64,000 nt of DNA, from the NCBI RefSeq assembly GCF_006335115.1, contig NZ_VDMJ01000015.1, positions 1 to 64,000 of the forward strand. The letters are read 5' to 3'. Shown here piece after piece: positions 2,551 to 19,513 of the stretch (its first letter is position 1; each line of letters opens with the position of its first letter). The notes beneath the pieces were generated by a model. That model was given only the letters and a program-made list of their open reading frames with translations, was not told where the DNA came from and searched no databases. The position numbers and the translations under genes are program-made. Source of the stretch: Streptomyces sp. NP160 (GTDB lineage: Bacteria; Actinomycetota; Actinomycetes; Actinomycetales; Quadrisphaeraceae).

Positions 2551-2665
2551 GCCGTCGCTGCCGCGCCGGACTCCGCTCGCTGCGCATCGCAGGCCCCAGC
2601 GGGGGCGACGTCTACCGGGCGCGATCGTCGTCAGCGGCCGGCGCTGGGCCAGGCAGGTGGACGCG

Positions 2666-3121
2666 GTGAGCGCCGTCGGACAGCGAGCGGGTCGGGCACG
2701 TCGCTACGCCAAGGCCCGGGACCGCCAGGTCAAGTTCCGCGCCACCGCGGAGGAGCACGCGCTGCTGGTCGAGGCTGCCCGCTCGGCGGGGCTGACGCCG
2801 TCGGGGTACGCCGCGGAGGCGGCGCTGGCGGCGGCACGGGGTGTGCGGGCGCCGTCGCTGCTGCCGGTCCGTGAGGCGTTGGTGGAGCTGATGGCGGCCC
2901 GCACGCAGGTGCGCCGGTTCGCGGTGAACGTGAACCAAGCGGTCAAGGCACTGAACGCCACGGGGGAGGCGCCGGAGTGGTTGGCGACGGCAGTCGCCAT
3001 CACTGACCGTGCCGTGCTGCGCCTGGACGGCGCGGCCGCTGACCTCGTCCACGCTGCGCGATCTGCTCGGCGGTCCGCGGTCGCTCCTCCGCTAGCCCTG
3101 GCCGCGCGGGAGGAGTCATGA
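2666..3121 (+). CDS. mobC: MobC-like relaxosome accessory protein
   Basis: About 151 residues. The N-terminal third is a ribbon-helix-helix-like segment (QVKFRATAEEHALLVEAARS then GLTPSGYAAEAAL), and the helical C-terminal part contains VRRFAVNVNQAVKALNATGE, which is characteristic of MobC proteins. These proteins bind oriT and help the relaxase melt and nick it. GTG 2666 has AGGTGG at good distance; GTG 2657 would add three residues. Its stop overlaps the relaxase start (ATGA at 3118), so the two are translationally coupled. The family call is based on the RHH plus NVNQ-type signature. Confidence 0.8.
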   Translation: MSAVGQRAGRARRYAKARDRQVKFRATAEEHALLVEAARSAGLTPSGYAAEAALAAARGVRAPSLLPVREALVELMAARTQVRRFAVNVNQAVKALNATGEAPEWLATAVAITDRAVLRLDGAAADLVHAARSARRSAVAPPLALAAREES

Positions 3122-4149
3122 TCGGCAAGGTCGTTCGAGGTAACGACGTCGGGGGGTTGCTGCGCTACCTGTACGGGCCGGGTCGTGCGAACGAGCACAC
3201 CAACCCGCACGTGGTGGCTGCGTGGGACGACGGCGTCGTGGCGGACTGCGCTCCGGGCAGGAACCCGCGGTTGAAGCGGCTGACGGCGCTCTTAGAGCAG
3301 CCGCTGGCCGCGCTGGACCGCCGACCGTCGCCGTCGGTGTGGCACTGCCCGCTGCGTACGGCTCCGGGTGACAGGGAGCTGTCCGACGCCGAGTGGGCGG
3401 ATGTCGCGGCTGAGGTGCTGCATCAGACGGGCCTTGCGCCCCGTGGAGATGCTGGCGGGTGCCGATGGGTCGCCGTACGCCACGCCGACGACCACATCCA
3501 CCTGGCGGTCACGCTCGCCCGCCAGGACGGACGTCGGGCGCGCACCTCGCACGACTACGCGCGGCTTGGTGCAGCGTGCCGCACGGTGGAGGAGCGGTAC
3601 GGGCTGAAGTTGACGCCAGCTCGGGACCGGACCGCGCCCAAGCGCCCAACGCGTGCGGAGGCCGAACGCGCGCAGCGTGAGGGGCGAGCGGAGACGCCTC
3701 GCCAGCAGTTGCGTCGCCAGGTTCGCCAGGCCGCGCTATCAGTCACCGACCTTCGTAGCTTCGTCGAGGCCCTGGAGAGCGCTCAAGTGCAGGTCCGCCT
3801 CCGCTACAGCGAGCTTGACCCGACACTGGTGACCGGCTACTCAGTGGCGGACATCTCACATCGGACGACCGCCGGCGAACTCGTCTGGTACGGCGGAGGC
3901 AAGCTCGCGCCACAGCTCTCCCTACCGAAGCTCCAGCGCATCTGGACGAACGGGGCGGCGACCAGGACACGGCGAACCGCGCTTGGAACAGGTGCGACTC
4001 AGCGGCCCCGTACGCCCAAGAAACAGCAGCGGGTGCTCAGGGCTGCTGCCTCGATCGTCGCACATGTGGAGGACGGCAATGTTGGCTCGGCGATCGCAGG
4101 CCTCGCTGTTCAGGTCGTGAAGGCTAGCCGTCCCCCTCGACGTCCGTAG
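3118..4149 (+). CDS. Relaxase/mobilization nuclease
   Basis: A 343-residue relaxase that should cleave oriT and stay covalently attached to the 5' end of the transferred strand. The N-terminus has RYLYGPGR with Tyr17 and Tyr19 as candidate nucleophiles, and residues about 123-130 carry the histidine triad HADDHIHL that binds the metal. After the nuclease domain comes an Arg/Lys-rich region (about 170-205) and a poorly conserved tail. Organisation and coupling to MobC fit the MOBP-like relaxases of actinobacterial conjugative elements. It is short: many relaxases carry a helicase or primase domain, absent here. The matching coupling protein and T4SS lie downstream on the opposite strand. Confidence 0.85.
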   Translation: MIGKVVRGNDVGGLLRYLYGPGRANEHTNPHVVAAWDDGVVADCAPGRNPRLKRLTALLEQPLAALDRRPSPSVWHCPLRTAPGDRELSDAEWADVAAEVLHQTGLAPRGDAGGCRWVAVRHADDHIHLAVTLARQDGRRARTSHDYARLGAACRTVEERYGLKLTPARDRTAPKRPTRAEAERAQREGRAETPRQQLRRQVRQAALSVTDLRSFVEALESAQVQVRLRYSELDPTLVTGYSVADISHRTTAGELVWYGGGKLAPQLSLPKLQRIWTNGAATRTRRTALGTGATQRPRTPKKQQRVLRAAASIVAHVEDGNVGSAIAGLAVQVVKASRPPRRP

Positions 4150-4230
4150 GTACCTGCCCGCTCTCACTGAAGTGGCTCTGACTTCCCATCTTCCAGTGCA
4201 CCATGCGTACGTCGAACCAGGAGGAGCACT

Positions 4231-7200
4231 GTGAGCGCCATTGCCATCGCTTTCGCCACGTACGTTGCCCAAGAGGGCGGCTCCAAGATCGCGGACTCGA
4301 TTGGCGCGAAGGTCAAGAGCGGACGTTGGGCGAGGCGAGCCGTCGCAAGAGCATTTGCATCTCAGCCGCGACCAAGGCCGGTACAAGCCGCCACTGAGTG
4401 GCTGAAGCTCGACGAGACGCTTCGCGAAGTCTTATTGAGTGCGAATCGCCCGGGCGAGACAAGTCGCCAATCATTGGACTCATACCTGACGCACCACTCT
4501 AAGCGGTGGGCGAAGCTTAGTGCGCGCGATCGCGCGGCGAGACTAGAATCTGTTCTGGACGAAATTTACGACTCTGTTCTGTCAGAGCACGATCCCTCAT
4601 GGTCAAGCCGCATCGCTAGCGCGCGAACGATGGCCGCCGTCAGCGAGGTGAGCGACTCGATCAAGGTACTCAGCCAGGATCTCCGGTCAGTCGAAGCGAG
4701 AAGATCTGAAACTGAGGTTGTCTCCCGGATACAAATTTTGCCATCAGGCTCACGAGATCGACTCCTGCAATACTGGCGCGACGATCCACTAGGTGTCTGG
4801 GAGGTCTTAGCTGCCTACACCTCCATCGACGCCACACCTGCTGAGGTTTCACGGCAGTGGTACGCCCTCACTCCCGCGGCGGTCCTGGAAGGAAGCGGCG
4901 CAACGCAATTGGCCGCCGGCGAGCTCGCCTGGGCCTACGGGGAGCCCGCCCTGGCCGCGAGATTGTTTGAGGGCGCTGCCCATTCGGGTGTTCCCCAGGC
5001 TGCCTGGCACTTGACGCTCGCGGCTTTGCTTTATGGCGATAGCGGTCACCCCCAGGATGCACGGAGATCTGTAGACGCAGCCAGGGCGGTAGGTGACGAC
5101 CCGCGAGTGGAAGCTGTTTCTGCCGCCCTCGTCGAGGACTGGGCGAGTCTGGGCCCCGCCTTGGCGAGGTGGGCCCCGCATGGTCCCGTTGAGCGGTCAT
5201 GTCACTACGCCCTCACGACTCGCCAGGTGTCGTCTGGTGACGGGCCTCCTCCAACGACCGAACGGGACCGACTCATTTCGTTGGGTCAGCAGTATGTACG
5301 CCAGGGCACGCCAGGAATTGAGCTTCACGTCGCAGGCAGCCTTTTCCTTCGAGCAACGTCTGGCGAGTCCACCAACCCTTATGGAGAATTGTCCGCAGTG
5401 AAAGAAATCGCTCTCCGCGTGCGTGACTCGCGGAGAGCATGTCGAGCTGATTCTGGCGAAGCTGTGGCTCTCGCCGTTAAAGCTGCCTTTCATGCCGGCG
5501 ATCCTGATGCGGCCATCGATATCGGCACGGTTGACGGACAGGCGACTGCGGCGGAAGCAGCTCATCCAGAAGTGGCTTCGAGCGTCACTCTCGCGTCTGT
5601 AGCCCGCGGAGACACGCTGCCGGAAGATCTTGGCAATATGTCCGCATTTGACGTCGCAAGGATCCGAGCCTACGCCGCTGAACGTGATCGGACGCCCGCA
5701 GCAGAGCATTGGCGAGCGGCGTCGAGAGCGGCGACCGCTGACTATGAGCGCGTTGTGGCGCTCGTGGGAATGGCTCGTCTCGGGGCCAGTGACACCGCCG
5801 AGCTGCAAGAGCTCAGCATCCGCTACCCAGAGCTGGCACAGCAGATCCGGGCCATCGAGGACCTGGCCCAGGGGCGGGACGGCGAGGCCATTGCAAGTCT
5901 TCGGCTTCTCGCACAGACCTCCATCACGGCAGCCAATGAACTCGTCGCAGCCCTACTTGAAGTCGACGATCGCCAAGGTGCCGTTCAAGTTATGCGTTCT
6001 GCGTCTGCGACATTCCATGACCCAGAATTCCGGTACCGAGCAGCTGTCATCCTCCGGAGGATGGGAAATATTGCCAGTGCTCGCGAGGAGATCCGCGAGT
6101 GCCTATCCGGGGCTCCTGCAACCTGGCCTGGTCTGGCGGAGGCGAGACGACTAGCCGCAGGACTCGCTTTGGATGACGACGACATTGCGGGTGCTGAGGA
6201 GATGCTCCGCGCGGCCCTGGAAGCCAATCCACGGGATCGTGCGACTCGATGGGGCGTTATCCGGCTGCTCCTGTCGAGAGCCGACCACGAGGCTGCCTGG
6301 CGAGTTTTTGGAGAACACGAAACGGTACTCGAAGTTACCAATGACGATGAAGCTCTGGCCTGGATACTGCTTCACCGCGAGTTCTCGACCCCGTCGGAGA
6401 CAACGATCGGGTGCCTGCGGTTGATTCGGCAGTTCTCTGCATCGGAGCACGTCCAAGCAGCAGCCCTAACCGCTGTAGTGACGCACGAAGGAGAGAGTGA
6501 GCCGCTGGACGCGGATCTCATTGCAAATTTTCAGGCGGCAGTCGCAGCTTTCTCCGAAGCCTGGCCAGATAGCTCCTTCTTCTCAGTTCGTAGCGTGCCG
6601 GAGGACCCTGATGAAATACTGTCCTCCTTGAACGACCTCACAAGGCGGACCCCCGAACAGGAACAGATCATCCATGAAGTGACCCTCATGGTCACCCTGA
6701 GCAGGCTTCCCTTTGGAACCCTGTCGGCCATTCTGGGGCAGAATTACACTGACTTTGTCATCCGGCGGGGGCTTGATGTCATTCCGTCTCGACACCCGGT
6801 ACCGGCTGAGCACGATATCGACGTTGAAACGTACAAGCGGGCGAGGGGTGGCGGGGTAGTGGTCGATACTACGACCCTTGCTCTCCTGCCGGTGCTGCCC
6901 AGCAGCGTCTCTGATCGCTTGAAGGCATCCGTATTGCTGAACGCTGCGGATGACACCCTGATCGACGCCCGCTCAGCGCGATCGCTTGGCGTTCGTCCTA
7001 GCCCGGGGAGGCTTGGTTGGGACGAACGCAGTCAGAGCGCCCGATTCTATGAGAACGACATGGATTGGGAGCGGAAAGTTCACCAGCAGGCCGTCAGCCT
7101 GGTCGCCGACTTGCAGAAGGTGAGGAGGCATCCAGTCCCAAGAAGGGGTCTCGATTCGCGAATCGATTGGGATACGCCATGGATGCGTTCTGTCGCCCTC

Positions 7201-7914
7201 GCGCTTCACTTGGGCATTCCACTTTGGTCTGATGATGCTGGTCTACGCAGTGTTGCGCGGGCCGTCGGCGTAACTGCGTTCTCGACCACTGCCGCCTTGG
7301 ATGCGATGTCAACCGAGAATAGCATCTCGGGTGAGGAAAGAGACGAATGTGATCGGCTGCTGGTCGAAGGTCGCGTAGGCGACATCCCCTTGATCGGACG
7401 AACTCACTTTGTCTTATCGTTAGCGGAGGACGCGCACTGGGGCGCGGGAGCATTATCCCTGGCCTTCAGTCGGCCGGCCGCTTGGCGCAACGTCATCTCC
7501 ACCATGGAATCCGTCGCAAATCTGCTTCCGAGTATCTTCCGTCACGCTCCTGAAAGCGTACCGAGTTGGGCATACTCTTTCGCGCGAGGTGCGGGGTACG
7601 CGTACCAAGCGCAACCCGAGCTTTTGTCGCTCGTGCTTGGCCGGATGTTGGTCGACTTCATACATGCTTCAAGGACTCAGGCCTCTCAGGTTTCTCAGGT
7701 AGTGGACGCAATGCGTCTTGCGATGCGCGGGGTTTCGAACTCGGCCACGAGTGGAGGGAACTTCGTCGAAGCCGCTTTCAAGGTGTACTTGTCGGCGCTG
7801 ATGGCGACCCTTCCCCCACGCATGGCGGCGCAGTACGTCCTAGCGTGCTCTGCAGCGCTTAGTGAGGAGGATCGGACGGTCATCGCCCGACTGGTTATAA
7901 AAGGTGACAGTTGA
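4231..7914 (+). CDS. Large TPR-rich protein with C-terminal PIN-like nuclease domain
   Basis: A 1227-residue protein starting at GTG 4231 after a strong AGGAGGAG. The N-terminus has a short glycine/alanine segment and helices (1-150); residues about 200-770 are consecutive helical pairs of TPR/SEL1 character (for example LAAGELAWAYGEPALAARLF). Residues about 876-1015 look like a PIN domain: GVVVDTTTLAL with Asp879 after a hydrophobic strand, and later IPLWSDDAGLRSVARAVGV with Asp1001/Asp1002. A helical tail follows. PIN domains cut RNA; TPR arrays usually sense or scaffold. The gene is much richer in A/T than its neighbours (31 of 60 G/C in 4561-4620 against 48 of 60 in 2041-2100), so it was probably acquired separately. 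A defence or abortive-infection cargo gene is plausible but not shown. Confidence 0.6.
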   Translation: MSAIAIAFATYVAQEGGSKIADSIGAKVKSGRWARRAVARAFASQPRPRPVQAATEWLKLDETLREVLLSANRPGETSRQSLDSYLTHHSKRWAKLSARDRAARLESVLDEIYDSVLSEHDPSWSSRIASARTMAAVSEVSDSIKVLSQDLRSVEARRSETEVVSRIQILPSGSRDRLLQYWRDDPLGVWEVLAAYTSIDATPAEVSRQWYALTPAAVLEGSGATQLAAGELAWAYGEPALAARLFEGAAHSGVPQAAWHLTLAALLYGDSGHPQDARRSVDAARAVGDDPRVEAVSAALVEDWASLGPALARWAPHGPVERSCHYALTTRQVSSGDGPPPTTERDRLISLGQQYVRQGTPGIELHVAGSLFLRATSGESTNPYGELSAVKEIALRVRDSRRACRADSGEAVALAVKAAFHAGDPDAAIDIGTVDGQATAAEAAHPEVASSVTLASVARGDTLPEDLGNMSAFDVARIRAYAAERDRTPAAEHWRAASRAATADYERVVALVGMARLGASDTAELQELSIRYPELAQQIRAIEDLAQGRDGEAIASLRLLAQTSITAANELVAALLEVDDRQGAVQVMRSASATFHDPEFRYRAAVILRRMGNIASAREEIRECLSGAPATWPGLAEARRLAAGLALDDDDIAGAEEMLRAALEANPRDRATRWGVIRLLLSRADHEAAWRVFGEHETVLEVTNDDEALAWILLHREFSTPSETTIGCLRLIRQFSASEHVQAAALTAVVTHEGESEPLDADLIANFQAAVAAFSEAWPDSSFFSVRSVPEDPDEILSSLNDLTRRTPEQEQIIHEVTLMVTLSRLPFGTLSAILGQNYTDFVIRRGLDVIPSRHPVPAEHDIDVETYKRARGGGVVVDTTTLALLPVLPSSVSDRLKASVLLNAADDTLIDARSARSLGVRPSPGRLGWDERSQSARFYENDMDWERKVHQQAVSLVADLQKVRRHPVPRRGLDSRIDWDTPWMRSVALALHLGIPLWSDDAGLRSVARAVGVTAFSTTAALDAMSTENSISGEERDECDRLLVEGRVGDIPLIGRTHFVLSLAEDAHWGAGALSLAFSRPAAWRNVISTMESVANLLPSIFRHAPESVPSWAYSFARGAGYAYQAQPELLSLVLGRMLVDFIHASRTQASQVSQVVDAMRLAMRGVSNSATSGGNFVEAAFKVYLSALMATLPPRMAAQYVLACSAALSEEDRTVIARLVIKGDS

Positions 7915-7942
7915 CCCTGTAGCCAACGCCTATGCCAATCCT

Positions 7943-8401
7943 CTAATTCGGGCGCAGATTGCCAACGCGGTCGAGGGGCGGTATGTGTGTTTCCTCGTGA
8001 CGGGTCGATGAGCAACTTGAGAAAGGACCTCGGGAACTGAGAAGTACGACGAGTTGAGGATCAAGAAACTGATGCAGCCAAGTGGACATGCCCAATGCTG
8101 GATCGTAACGCAGCGCCTTCCACGAGCGCCAGAGCGCTTCAAAGCGCACCACAGCCTCGCGGTGCTCTCGCCACCGGGAGCACCAGCGAAACTCACCGCC
8201 GAGAGGCCGGGGAAAGGTGGCGCAGAAATAGTTCAGAACCCAGCTGTCAAGGTCGGAGTAGTCATCCTCGCCGTTATGCGCGTTGTTCGAAGGGGGGCCG
8301 AGACCGATGTCGGCGAGTTCCGCTTCGTCGGCACGAAGCTCTAACCGCGCCAGTCGAGCGTCGACCTCGGCCTGCCACCGCTCACTGTTCGCGCCGGTCA
8401 T
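7943..8401 (-). CDS. DUF4913 family protein
   Basis: A 152-residue protein with the conserved core of DUF4913: FPRPLGGEFRWCSRWREH, then RFEALWRSWKALRYDP and STWLHQFLDPQLVVLLSSRG. This family is common in conjugative and integrative elements of actinobacteria, next to coupling-protein genes; its function is unknown. The start ATG overlaps the stop of the VirD4-like gene (ATGA at 8398-8401), so it is the last gene of the transfer operon. The C-terminal end is somewhat richer in A/T, like the neighbouring TPR-PIN gene with which it converges, 28 bp apart. Confidence 0.75.
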   Translation of the reverse strand: MTGANSERWQAEVDARLARLELRADEAELADIGLGPPSNNAHNGEDDYSDLDSWVLNYFCATFPRPLGGEFRWCSRWREHREAVVRFEALWRSWKALRYDPALGMSTWLHQFLDPQLVVLLSSRGPFSSCSSTRHEETHIPPLDRVGNLRPN

Positions 8402-10143
8402 CGGTCGCCTCGTCGAGCCGGGGCCTCGTAATAGGGCTGCAGACGTACCTGGGCCGCCCGCAGGCCGGTGGCCAGCACCAGCGCCGTCCCCTTCGGCATC
8501 GCCCGCAGATGCTCAGGAGGAAGTAGCCGCTGGCGGCGCAGAGACGTCGTCACCGATCGTGATGCGCGCTGGCGACCGTCGCCGCTGCCGTCGGCGTAGG
8601 ACCGCACCGTGACGTCGTGGTCGCCTACCAGGCGACTGACATCCTCGGCGAACCTGGCGTCGTCGATCCCCGCGCCGACCAGCTTCACCGTGGCCGCTGA
8701 CCAGAGGGAATCCATCCCGGTTTCGCCCCAAACGCGCACTCCCTGCCGGTAGGACTGCAGCACCGTCAGCGGCACGACGCCGCGCGACCCGAGGTGGGAG
8801 TACAGATCGGGTAGGTCGGGGATCTTGCAGATGTTCGCCGCCTCGTCGAGGACGACGACGAGTGGGGGGTCCAGGCGGGCGCCGGAGGAGCGCTCCGCTG
8901 CGCGGATGCCGTCGTGCATCAGTCGGTCCACCAGCGCTGCCACGAGCGGCGCGGCGGTCCCGGCGCCGTTCTTGGACAGTAAATGCAGCGTCTGCCGGGA
9001 CGTGACGAACGCAGCGGTGTTGAACTCCTCGCACCCCGTGGCGCCGCTGGTCCGCGCTGGCACCAACCACCGCATGATGACCGGGTCTCGCAGCGCCGAG
9101 GCAGCGGTGCGGGCGGTCTCGTAGACGCCGTCGCGGGTTTCGACCGCCCCGTTCTGCCGACCGACGACCGCGGCAGCTGCCGCGTGGTGGCCGTGCGCAC
9201 GCAAGAGGTTCGCCGCCGTCGGGACCGCCGAATCGGTGAGCCACTCGTAGACCTCCGGCAGCGAGCGCTCCGAGAGAGCGGCAGCCAGCAGGAGGTTGGC
9301 GAGCAGGTCGTGGGCGGCGCTGGACCAGAAGTCGCGTCCGTCCTTTTCGCCGCGGATCTCGGTGATGAAGTGCCCTGCCAGCCGGGTCGCCTCCTCCACC
9401 GTGGTGACCCCGCGCAGCGGGTCCCACCACATCGCCTGCGACTGCCCGGTGACTCCCTGGGGGTCGAAGACCCACACCCGCTCACCGGTGGAGCCGGCAC
9501 GCTCGGCCCAGGTGGCCTCCCACAGATCCGGCTTGATCGAGGTCGCCAGCACCGGGCCGGGGGCATTGCGCACGATCGGCACCGTCAGCGTCGTCGTCTC
9601 GCCGGCCCGGGGCGCCATCACCGCCAACAGCACGTCCTCCCACGAGGCCCGTAGCCTGGGGCCGCGCGGCATCAAGACTCCCAGCGCGAGGCCGACGTCC
9701 TCGGCAGCGACGTCACGGTCCGGTCGCTGTGCCAGCGACCGGCGCAGGCGCCTAGCCCGCTCCTTCGCGGGAGCCGGGGTGAGCGGGGCCACCTCGTGCG
9801 CCTGCGCGAGCCCTTCGACCGGCGCTAGCACCCGCCGCCCCAGGACCGTCAGCGCGCACCCCGCGGTCGTCACGACGGCGAGAAGCAGGAAGACCAGCAC
9901 GACGACAGCCCAAGTCGGCGTCCCCGGCCACACAGCCTCGACGCCGTCGCCGACGAGGAGCCGCACGAAGTCGACGCCAAACGGCGGCGAGACCCACCCG
10001 TTCCCTGCAAGCCAGGACGCCGTCGTCCCGGCCAGCCGCACCAACCACGCGAGCCCGACGACGCCCCACACCACACCCAGCAGCGTCATCGGCAGCCCGA
10101 ACCCGGGCGTCGCAGCACCACGGGGCTCCAGCACCCGGCCCAT
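8398..10143 (-). CDS. VirD4/TraD-type conjugative coupling ATPase with aberrant Walker A
   Basis: A 581-residue coupling protein that brings the relaxase-DNA complex to the secretion channel. Two N-terminal membrane segments (about 18-40 and 76-100) precede the ATPase domain. The Walker A region at 177-184 reads APRAGETT: Glu182 stands where Lys is expected. Walker B is LVVVLDEAANI at about 428-438, and the TraM/TraD recognition part follows (MDSLWSAATVKLVGAGIDD). ATG 10143 is preferred over TTG 10146. The gene sits 7 bp after the VirB4 stop and overlaps DUF4913. Family assignment is secure from the overall layout; whether it still hydrolyses ATP is open. Confidence 0.85.
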   Translation of the reverse strand: MGRVLEPRGAATPGFGLPMTLLGVVWGVVGLAWLVRLAGTTASWLAGNGWVSPPFGVDFVRLLVGDGVEAVWPGTPTWAVVVLVFLLLAVVTTAGCALTVLGRRVLAPVEGLAQAHEVAPLTPAPAKERARRLRRSLAQRPDRDVAAEDVGLALGVLMPRGPRLRASWEDVLLAVMAPRAGETTTLTVPIVRNAPGPVLATSIKPDLWEATWAERAGSTGERVWVFDPQGVTGQSQAMWWDPLRGVTTVEEATRLAGHFITEIRGEKDGRDFWSSAAHDLLANLLLAAALSERSLPEVYEWLTDSAVPTAANLLRAHGHHAAAAAVVGRQNGAVETRDGVYETARTAASALRDPVIMRWLVPARTSGATGCEEFNTAAFVTSRQTLHLLSKNGAGTAAPLVAALVDRLMHDGIRAAERSSGARLDPPLVVVLDEAANICKIPDLPDLYSHLGSRGVVPLTVLQSYRQGVRVWGETGMDSLWSAATVKLVGAGIDDARFAEDVSRLVGDHDVTVRSYADGSGDGRQRASRSVTTSLRRQRLLPPEHLRAMPKGTALVLATGLRAAQVRLQPYYEAPARRGDR

Positions 10144-10150
10144 CAACGCC

Positions 10151-18133: not shown

Positions 18134-19513
18134 ATGCCCAAGCACCGTCAGCCCACCCCCGCCGCTCGCCGCGCAAGGCCCGCCGCCGTGACGATCGGAG
18201 CGTTGACGCTCCTGTGCAGCGCTACCGGCGTCGCCTTGGCCGCTACGAACCCGGCAGCCGAGGAGACGCCGATGCCGGCCAGCACCACCACCACCACCAC
18301 CGCCGCGCCCTCGACCCTGGAGGTCGCGCCGCAGCCGACCGCGATGACGCCTGTCGGTTCCGAGACCACAGCACCTAGCGAGCCGACCGCCGCCCAGCCC
18401 CCGCAGGGCGACGGCGAGGCGTGGCTATCGGGAGCCTCGGGCGACGGCGCGGCCGACGGGGCCCTGGGGGAGTGGCGTGGTGACCCCGTCGACATCGTCG
18501 GCACCTGGGCCGACGTTGGTGACAACCAGACCCAGTTGTACTCCATCGCCCCTGGCGGCGAGGTCGCCGACTTCGACGGCGCCATCGACATCGCTCCCGG
18601 CGGGCTACTCGAGGGCGACACCTGGGCTGCGGCCGCCGACGGTGCTTACGACGACCGCTGGCGAGAGTCGCTGACCCGCATGGCAGAGCTTCGCCAGGGC
18701 CGCGGAACGACGTACGTGCGCCCTTTCCACGAGTTCAACCTCGGTGGCTGGAACTGGTCGGTCAGCCCCGGCGACGCCGAGGACTTCAAGGCCGCCTGGG
18801 CCCGCTACCGGGCGATCCAGCAGGAGGCCTTCCCCGACGCCCAGCTCGTCTACGGCGTCAACGTCACCAGCTCGGGCACTGACCTGGACTGGCGCACCAC
18901 CTGGCCCGGCAGCGACCAGGCCGATGTCCTCGGCGTGGACACCTACAACGGTTGGCCCACCATCACCTCAGCCGACGAGTTCGACGCTCAGCTCGACGCC
19001 CGTGGCGACGACGGCATCCCCGTCGGGCTGCAGGCCTACAGCGAGCAGGCTGAGCAGTGGGGGGTGCCGCTGGCGGTGCCGGAGTGGTCCGGCCGCGCCG
19101 GGATGGGCGACGAGCCCGCCTACGTGGAGGGGATGGTCGACTGGTTCGACGCCAACGCCGGCGACGGGCCGGGACAGCTGGCCTACGAGATCCTGTTCAA
19201 CGCTCCGCAGGACGACGGCAACTTCCAGCTCTTCGCCGACGACACGAAGATGCCCGACTCAGCCCAGGCGTACGTAGACGCCGTCGCTTCGACCGAGGAT
19301 GACCGCACAGCCGACGACCCCTCCTCGGCGAAAGAGGCAGCCGCGGCGCAGGACGAGGGGCCGCTGCCGGCGCCCTCGTCAACCTCGACGACCACTGCGG
19401 CCACCGAGCCGGGTCAGCCGGTGGGAGAAAAGACCACTCCTGCCTCGCAGGCGGACGTCGATGAGCTCGTGGCTCGGCTGGACGCGCTGCTGGACCGCCT
19501 CGAGCAGAGCTGA
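18134..19513 (+). CDS. Secreted GH26-like glycoside hydrolase
   Basis: A 459-residue exported protein. Residues 1-36 form a signal peptide (basic start, TIGALTLLCSATGVALA), then a Thr/Pro/Ala-rich stretch to about 95. Residues 100-385 resemble GH26 beta-mannanase-type domains: RPFHEFNLGGWNWSV with Glu200 as the likely acid/base, VDTYNGWP, and VPEWSG with Glu317 as the likely nucleophile. The tail from about 395 is low-complexity and ends in a short helix (VDELVARLDALLDRLEQS) that may form a coiled coil. It follows the two transfer-region genes and precedes a terminator, so it appears to belong to the conjugation module, perhaps to remodel extracellular polysaccharide during mating. The substrate is unknown. 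Confidence 0.7.
   Translation: MPKHRQPTPAARRARPAAVTIGALTLLCSATGVALAATNPAAEETPMPASTTTTTTAAPSTLEVAPQPTAMTPVGSETTAPSEPTAAQPPQGDGEAWLSGASGDGAADGALGEWRGDPVDIVGTWADVGDNQTQLYSIAPGGEVADFDGAIDIAPGGLLEGDTWAAAADGAYDDRWRESLTRMAELRQGRGTTYVRPFHEFNLGGWNWSVSPGDAEDFKAAWARYRAIQQEAFPDAQLVYGVNVTSSGTDLDWRTTWPGSDQADVLGVDTYNGWPTITSADEFDAQLDARGDDGIPVGLQAYSEQAEQWGVPLAVPEWSGRAGMGDEPAYVEGMVDWFDANAGDGPGQLAYEILFNAPQDDGNFQLFADDTKMPDSAQAYVDAVASTEDDRTADDPSSAKEAAAAQDEGPLPAPSSTSTTTAATEPGQPVGEKTTPASQADVDELVARLDALLDRLEQS

Follow-up and report, generated by a model that had tools for sequence, protein, structure and literature searches.

A TPR-PIN gene as probable defence cargo in an exchangeable slot of an actinobacterial conjugative element

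The gene at 4231-7914 of the window (the whole stretch of DNA analysed here, i.e., 64,000 nucleotides of contig NZ_VDMJ01000015.1 from Streptomyces sp. NP160) encodes a TPR-PIN protein, for which context gives good support to a role in defence, and which would represent exchangeable anti-invader cargo, most likely anti-phage, of an actinobacterial conjugative element. In the likeliest reading, this protein is probably a mobile anti-phage system made of one protein, with a PIN RNase that is autoinhibited until the TPR portion senses infection. The protein is new as a variant of a predicted kind, and the hotspot at the relaxase/T4SS junction is the more useful new point, since three more candidate systems, unrecognised or recognised only in part, emerge from it.

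The gene and its place in the transfer module

The gene and its surroundings have the following layout:

2657..3121, forward strand: MobC/NikA-like relaxosome gene (Pfam)
3118..4149, forward strand: MobA/VirD2-type relaxase gene (Pfam); the DNA homology with sister elements ends at about 3925
3925..8009, no strand assigned: exchangeable cargo segment, non-homologous among sister elements (DNA comparison)
4219..4224, forward strand: ribosome-binding site AGGAGG, 6 nt 5' of the GTG start (direct reading)
4231..7914, forward strand: TPR/PIN cargo gene with a helical N-terminus, 1227 aa (ORF list, Pfam, structure model and alignment)
7943..8401, reverse strand: DUF4913 gene (Pfam); the DNA homology with sister elements restarts at about 8009
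8398..10146, reverse strand: T4SS coupling protein (T4CP), TraG/TraM-recognition (Pfam)

The initial annotation had taken the 1227-residue open reading frame as real, and the GTG start with its AGGAGG motif agrees with this. The frame did not arise by chance, given that the longest stop-free run among 200 same-base shuffles had 335 codons, against the 1227 codons observed, and that full-length relatives are known. The GC content of the gene is 60.5% (GC3 62%), whereas the T4CP and ATPase genes on its right reach 72-75% (GC3 87-94%), and all the 1-kb steps from 4001 to 8500 make up the lowest GC of the window, which has about 70% GC. The gene is of foreign origin, as read from its composition. 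The low GC reported initially was thus correct in its direction, although the contrast given for it (31/60 against 48/60) was overstated.

The position between the relaxase and the T4SS operon was also confirmed, with the MobA/VirD2-type gene recognised by Pfam on the left, and the DUF4913 and T4CP genes on the right. The relaxase lies about 80 bp upstream, DUF4913 follows on the opposite strand, and, as these two genes are the flanks, no small antitoxin gene adjoins the TPR-PIN gene. A search for a sigma-70-type promoter or a terminator at the gene came back empty, which tells little for this host. Elsewhere in the window, a secreted glycosyl hydrolase-like gene (18134-19513, GH26-like by eye) adjoins the T4SS operon, and a similar gene is present in another element (L071, 8153-9625).

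Anatomy of the protein and distribution of its family

The protein is divided into the following parts, all of which are encoded on the forward strand:

4231..4695, forward strand: N-terminal helical domain, residues 1-155 (weak profile match; low-confidence all-helix model)
4708..6495, forward strand: TPR-type alpha solenoid, residues 160-755 (TPR_19 match; model pLDDT about 80-94)
6673..6798, forward strand: small conserved HTH-like stretch before the PIN domain, residues 815-856 (alignment)
6862..7263, forward strand: PIN nuclease domain, residues 878-1011, PF20698 (profile match)
6865..6867, forward strand: codon of Asp879, a predicted metal ligand (unchanged across the 12 family members aligned)
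6964..6966, forward strand: codon of Asp912, a predicted metal ligand (unchanged across the 12 family members aligned)
7231..7236, forward strand: codons of Asp1001-Asp1002, both predicted metal ligands (unchanged across the 12 intact family members aligned)
7288..7911, forward strand: C-terminal helical extension, residues 1020-1227 (family-conserved)

The long helical-repeat part that had been described was borne out by a Pfam TPR_19 match at residues 646-689 and by the predicted alpha solenoid at 160-755, which is a predicted sensor or scaffold. The N-terminal domain that precedes it has no Pfam match or recognisable enzyme domain, and is related to the N-termini of five relatives by a weak profile match (hhalign E 3e-4, probability 40%). 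This domain lies in the same position where the relatives bear swapped effector or adaptor domains. Beyond the solenoid, the HTH-like stretch at residues 815-856 occupies the place expected for a GreA/B-C domain, and one relative matches HTH_upst_double_PIN (PF24407) in a hit under the cut-off (E 0.003).

The PIN-like domain had been assigned to the C-terminus, and, while its PIN identity stands, given the match to PF20698 (32.6 bits, cut-off 27.8), it does not lie at the extreme C-terminus, as approximately 215 mostly helical residues follow it. The same profile matched all 12 family members scanned. In an alignment of the window protein with 11 intact relatives, which have 20-30% identity to it, D879, D912, D1001, and D1002 are invariant in the PIN region, and no other acidic residue there is, so that Asp879 and Asp1001/1002 had been correctly picked out in the initial annotation, and D912 completes an acidic tetrad.

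The structure prediction by which the PIN fold was to be checked, performed on residues 600-1227, stayed under a pLDDT of 50 across most of the PIN domain, and for this model TPR proteins were all that Foldseek returned, so the assignment of the fold rests on the HMM evidence. The sole match of the PIN region in a PDB profile search was weak and covered 40 residues of TTHA0540 (3ix7, E 0.0077). The RNA-ligase-partner/HARP profile (TIGR03875), which reached 13-17 bits against a cut-off of 95 in the window protein alone, and in none of the relatives, was dropped.

Relatives were recovered by protein search in 10 of the 395 genomes of the class, and PF20698 passes its cut-off in 5/395 genomes of the class sample and 3/396 of the phylum sample, the window's own genome included; the genus's five other genomes lack a copy. 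One relative (P0002; G068) bears a PNPase N-terminus (PNP_UDP_1 domain), and those from Micromonospora and Dactylosporangium have a different N-terminus, PD-(D/E)XK or REase-like by eye and without a Pfam match. The helical type is found in the window protein, in which the match is modest, as well as in the Arthrobacter plasmid relative and others. The core of the window protein clusters with the Micromonosporaceae proteins (93/96), yet its N-terminus is of the other, helical, type, which fits domain swapping. Weak N-terminal matches in two other genomes (G033 and G365) sit in unrelated proteins, and were rejected.

Broken copies of the family are present in Frankia QA3 and in a second genome (G222), and they fit defence-gene turnover. 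Neither the phage-record search nor two alignment scans of viral contigs yielded a viral relative, and no PADLOC model matches the window protein. In Frankia sp. QA3, the homologue is broken within its PIN part by a transposase-like gene (L025, 12648-13889).

Neighbourhoods of the relatives and the exchangeable cargo slot

The survey of homologue neighbourhoods showed that housekeeping loci are not the setting of this family, whose members have either defence genes or relaxase/T4SS genes nearby. For example, two relatives adjoin Wadjet JetABC, one of them also being near AbiD and the other near a HamB-like (Hachiman-like) helicase, and Cas3g, a PrimPol/PbeA-like protein, and a SIR2-like protein are neighbours of one further relative each. 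The Arthrobacter relative lies beside relaxase/MobC genes and near PDC-S02, and another (G406) has a TrwC relaxase on one side and a T4CP on the other, in an unrelated conjugative element and in the orientation opposite to that of the window. L029 and L015 are the unrelated elements in which relaxase/T4SS genes adjoin a relative, and tyrosine integrases are found near two relatives, although transfer modules are not the setting of most of the other relatives. As the neighbours included in the scan had been selected by eye, without a genome-wide background rate, this evidence is strong, but not statistical.

The cargo itself is exchangeable between closely related elements. Three further genomes of the genus encode T4CPs approximately 90% identical to that of the window, with two copies in one of them, and the DNA homology between the window and these sisters stops inside the relaxase gene (at about 3925) and returns inside DUF4913 (at about 8009). 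In one decayed sister copy, in which the relaxase has been lost, the homology stops at about 3006 instead. Between these breakpoints, the sister segments have 3-4.3 kb and 56-60% GC, and their contents are different every time, whereas the TPR-PIN gene is the only gene of the 3.8-kb slot of the window.

One sister (L062, G002:C18, 8288-11974) carries a Lamassu/ABC-3C operon composed of LmuA-CTD7, MC3/LmuC, and LmuB/DUF3732, with 60% GC in an element of 70% GC. At the same junction of a second sister (L063, G003:C5, 11820-14601), there is a low-GC DUF6119 protein together with a GIY-YIG-like protein, a pair that is a candidate defence system. The third (L064, G004:C11, 10784-14222) has, also at this junction, a low-GC HATPase-like protein of 726 aa and a protein of 403 aa, the latter without a Pfam or PADLOC match, and this pair is a candidate new defence system. 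The fourth (L065, G004:C6, 5447-9512) contains an IetA-like AAA ATPase, a DUF6414 protein, and a protein of 396 aa, in a decayed element with a broken T4CP and a lost relaxase. PADLOC recognises no defence system in two of these four cargos.

At the corresponding junction of a more distant ICE, there is a type III restriction-modification pair, and Streptomyces plasmids with a related backbone have small hypothetical genes only at that spot. The second element of the host (G000 C102) and a G003 relative are without a low-GC insert at the junction. As the cargo differs in each sister, and some related elements have no insert, the slot is exchangeable, and dispensable for the backbone. No direct repeats flank the cargo, so recombination in the flanking genes is likelier than the action of a dedicated integrase. 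At the corresponding junction of the host's second element (L068, G000:C102, 5456-6316), there is another protein, PIN-like by eye (LVPDTSVLM), which is not of low GC.

Proposed mechanism, alternatives, and known systems

PIN domains are RNases that depend on metal and carry clustered acidic residues, and TPR-based sensors are well established, which, together with the anatomy of the protein, makes an autoinhibited RNase the likeliest reading. In the course of events that we infer, which includes the defence activity itself, the trigger, the autoinhibition, the RNA substrate, and any abortive outcome, the protein would remain silent until infection, when the TPR solenoid would detect either a product of the phage or a host complex that the phage has altered. 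The N-terminal helical domain, which is in the slot of the PNPase or REase-like effectors of the relatives, may serve in assembly or in the recruitment of a partner. The PIN domain would then bind metal through D879, D912, D1001, and D1002 and cut RNA, either transcripts or tRNA, which would halt phage production or the cell. The single-protein defence or abortive-infection cargo proposed in the initial annotation is a reading that PF20698, the neighbourhoods, and the sister cargos support.

An alternative that has a small chance of being correct is that the PIN domain is an RNA-binding sensor rather than the killing part, with the N-terminal helical adaptor recruiting a separate effector encoded by the host. 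The N-terminus is indeed the part that is swapped among the relatives, being a true enzyme in some of them (PNPase), and that of the window protein has no recognisable enzyme domain, although the four invariant acidic residues would argue for catalysis, and the gene is alone in its slot. It is slightly less probable that the protein works for the element itself and not against phages, through competitor exclusion, addiction, or the regulation of transfer. This would be consistent with a gene inside the transfer module and with relatives beside relaxase/T4SS genes in other elements, but the sisters with T4CPs of about 90% identity have other genes in place of TPR-PIN, the related Streptomyces plasmids hold only small backbone genes at this spot, and transfer modules are not home to most of the other relatives.

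The model of Kaur et al. (2021), in which a GreA/B-C-like domain docks on RNA polymerase, phage transcripts are cleaved by the PIN domain as they are extruded, and the cell is spared, is the least probable of these alternatives for the window protein. The PIN family and the order of TPR before PIN are the same, and a region of 120 residues lies between the two, where GreA/B-C would sit. However, the conserved part of this region looks HTH-like, and GreA_GreB (PF01272) was matched by Pfam in none of the 12 family members. The GreA C-terminal domains of related genomes (n = 13) reached a probability of only 0.2-0.3% against the TPR-PIN profile in hhalign, although the structure model is poor there, and a very diverged copy could escape. 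RNA-polymerase docking is thus less likely here, as the docking domain is not detectable.

The comparison with known systems brings the window protein close to several of them. Toxins of the VapC type are small proteins with a PIN fold, an acidic metal site, and a cognate antitoxin. The window protein shares the PIN nuclease and the acidic metal site with them, but its PIN domain sits inside a protein of 1227 aa, and the antitoxin gene is absent.

The initial annotation knew of no named system with exactly this layout, which proved incorrect, as a prediction of essentially the same layout exists. This is TPR-GreA/B-C-PIN, a predicted and mostly stand-alone conflict protein composed of a variable N-terminal effector, TPR, GreA/B-C, and PIN (Kaur, Iyer, Burroughs, Aravind 2021, eLife 10:e70394), for which the PIN domain of Pfam PF20698 was made. 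The likeness extends to the large stand-alone protein, the variable N-terminus, the TPR before the PIN, and the PIN family itself, and the PNPase and REase-like N-termini of the relatives match those listed for that system. The window protein and its relatives differ in having no detectable GreA/B-C domain, and the window protein also differs in its helical residues after the PIN domain, its helical N-terminus without a Pfam name, and its carriage by a conjugative element. It is thus a variant rather than a full member, given the absence of GreA/B-C from all 12 proteins by Pfam and from the profile comparison. The open literature searched yielded no paper that names PF20698 or that tests a protein of this sort. 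The 2021 prediction of the family was made from sequence, and the copy in the window, a single gene with an acidic tetrad that is invariant throughout, is a clean example.

DS-3 (DefensePredictor, Science 2026, PMC13092281) is a one-protein defence system without an antitoxin, in which the catalytic residues of the PIN RNase are needed for protection, and for which autoinhibition has been proposed. Its PIN domain is split between the N- and C-terminus, and it is likened to the window protein by description, no sequence link having been found.

There is about an even chance that two proposals hold together, i.e., that the actinobacterial PF20698 branch without GreA/B-C is a distinct family of single-protein RNase immunity, and that the relaxase/DUF4913-T4CP junction is a dedicated slot for defence cassettes. 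If so, the HATPase + 403-aa, DUF6119 + GIY-YIG, and AAA + DUF6414 cargos would also be new defence systems, and reading the contents of the slot would provide a simple route to further systems in actinobacterial conjugative elements. No report of the relaxase/T4SS junction as a defence slot was found in the open literature searched. In P2/P4 satellites (PMC9122126) and Pseudomonas islands (PMC12629846), various defence systems are reported to replace one another at a fixed locus between conserved genes of the element; the slot of the window differs from these hotspots in lying at the convergent junction of the relaxase and the T4SS operon, in an actinobacterial conjugative element.
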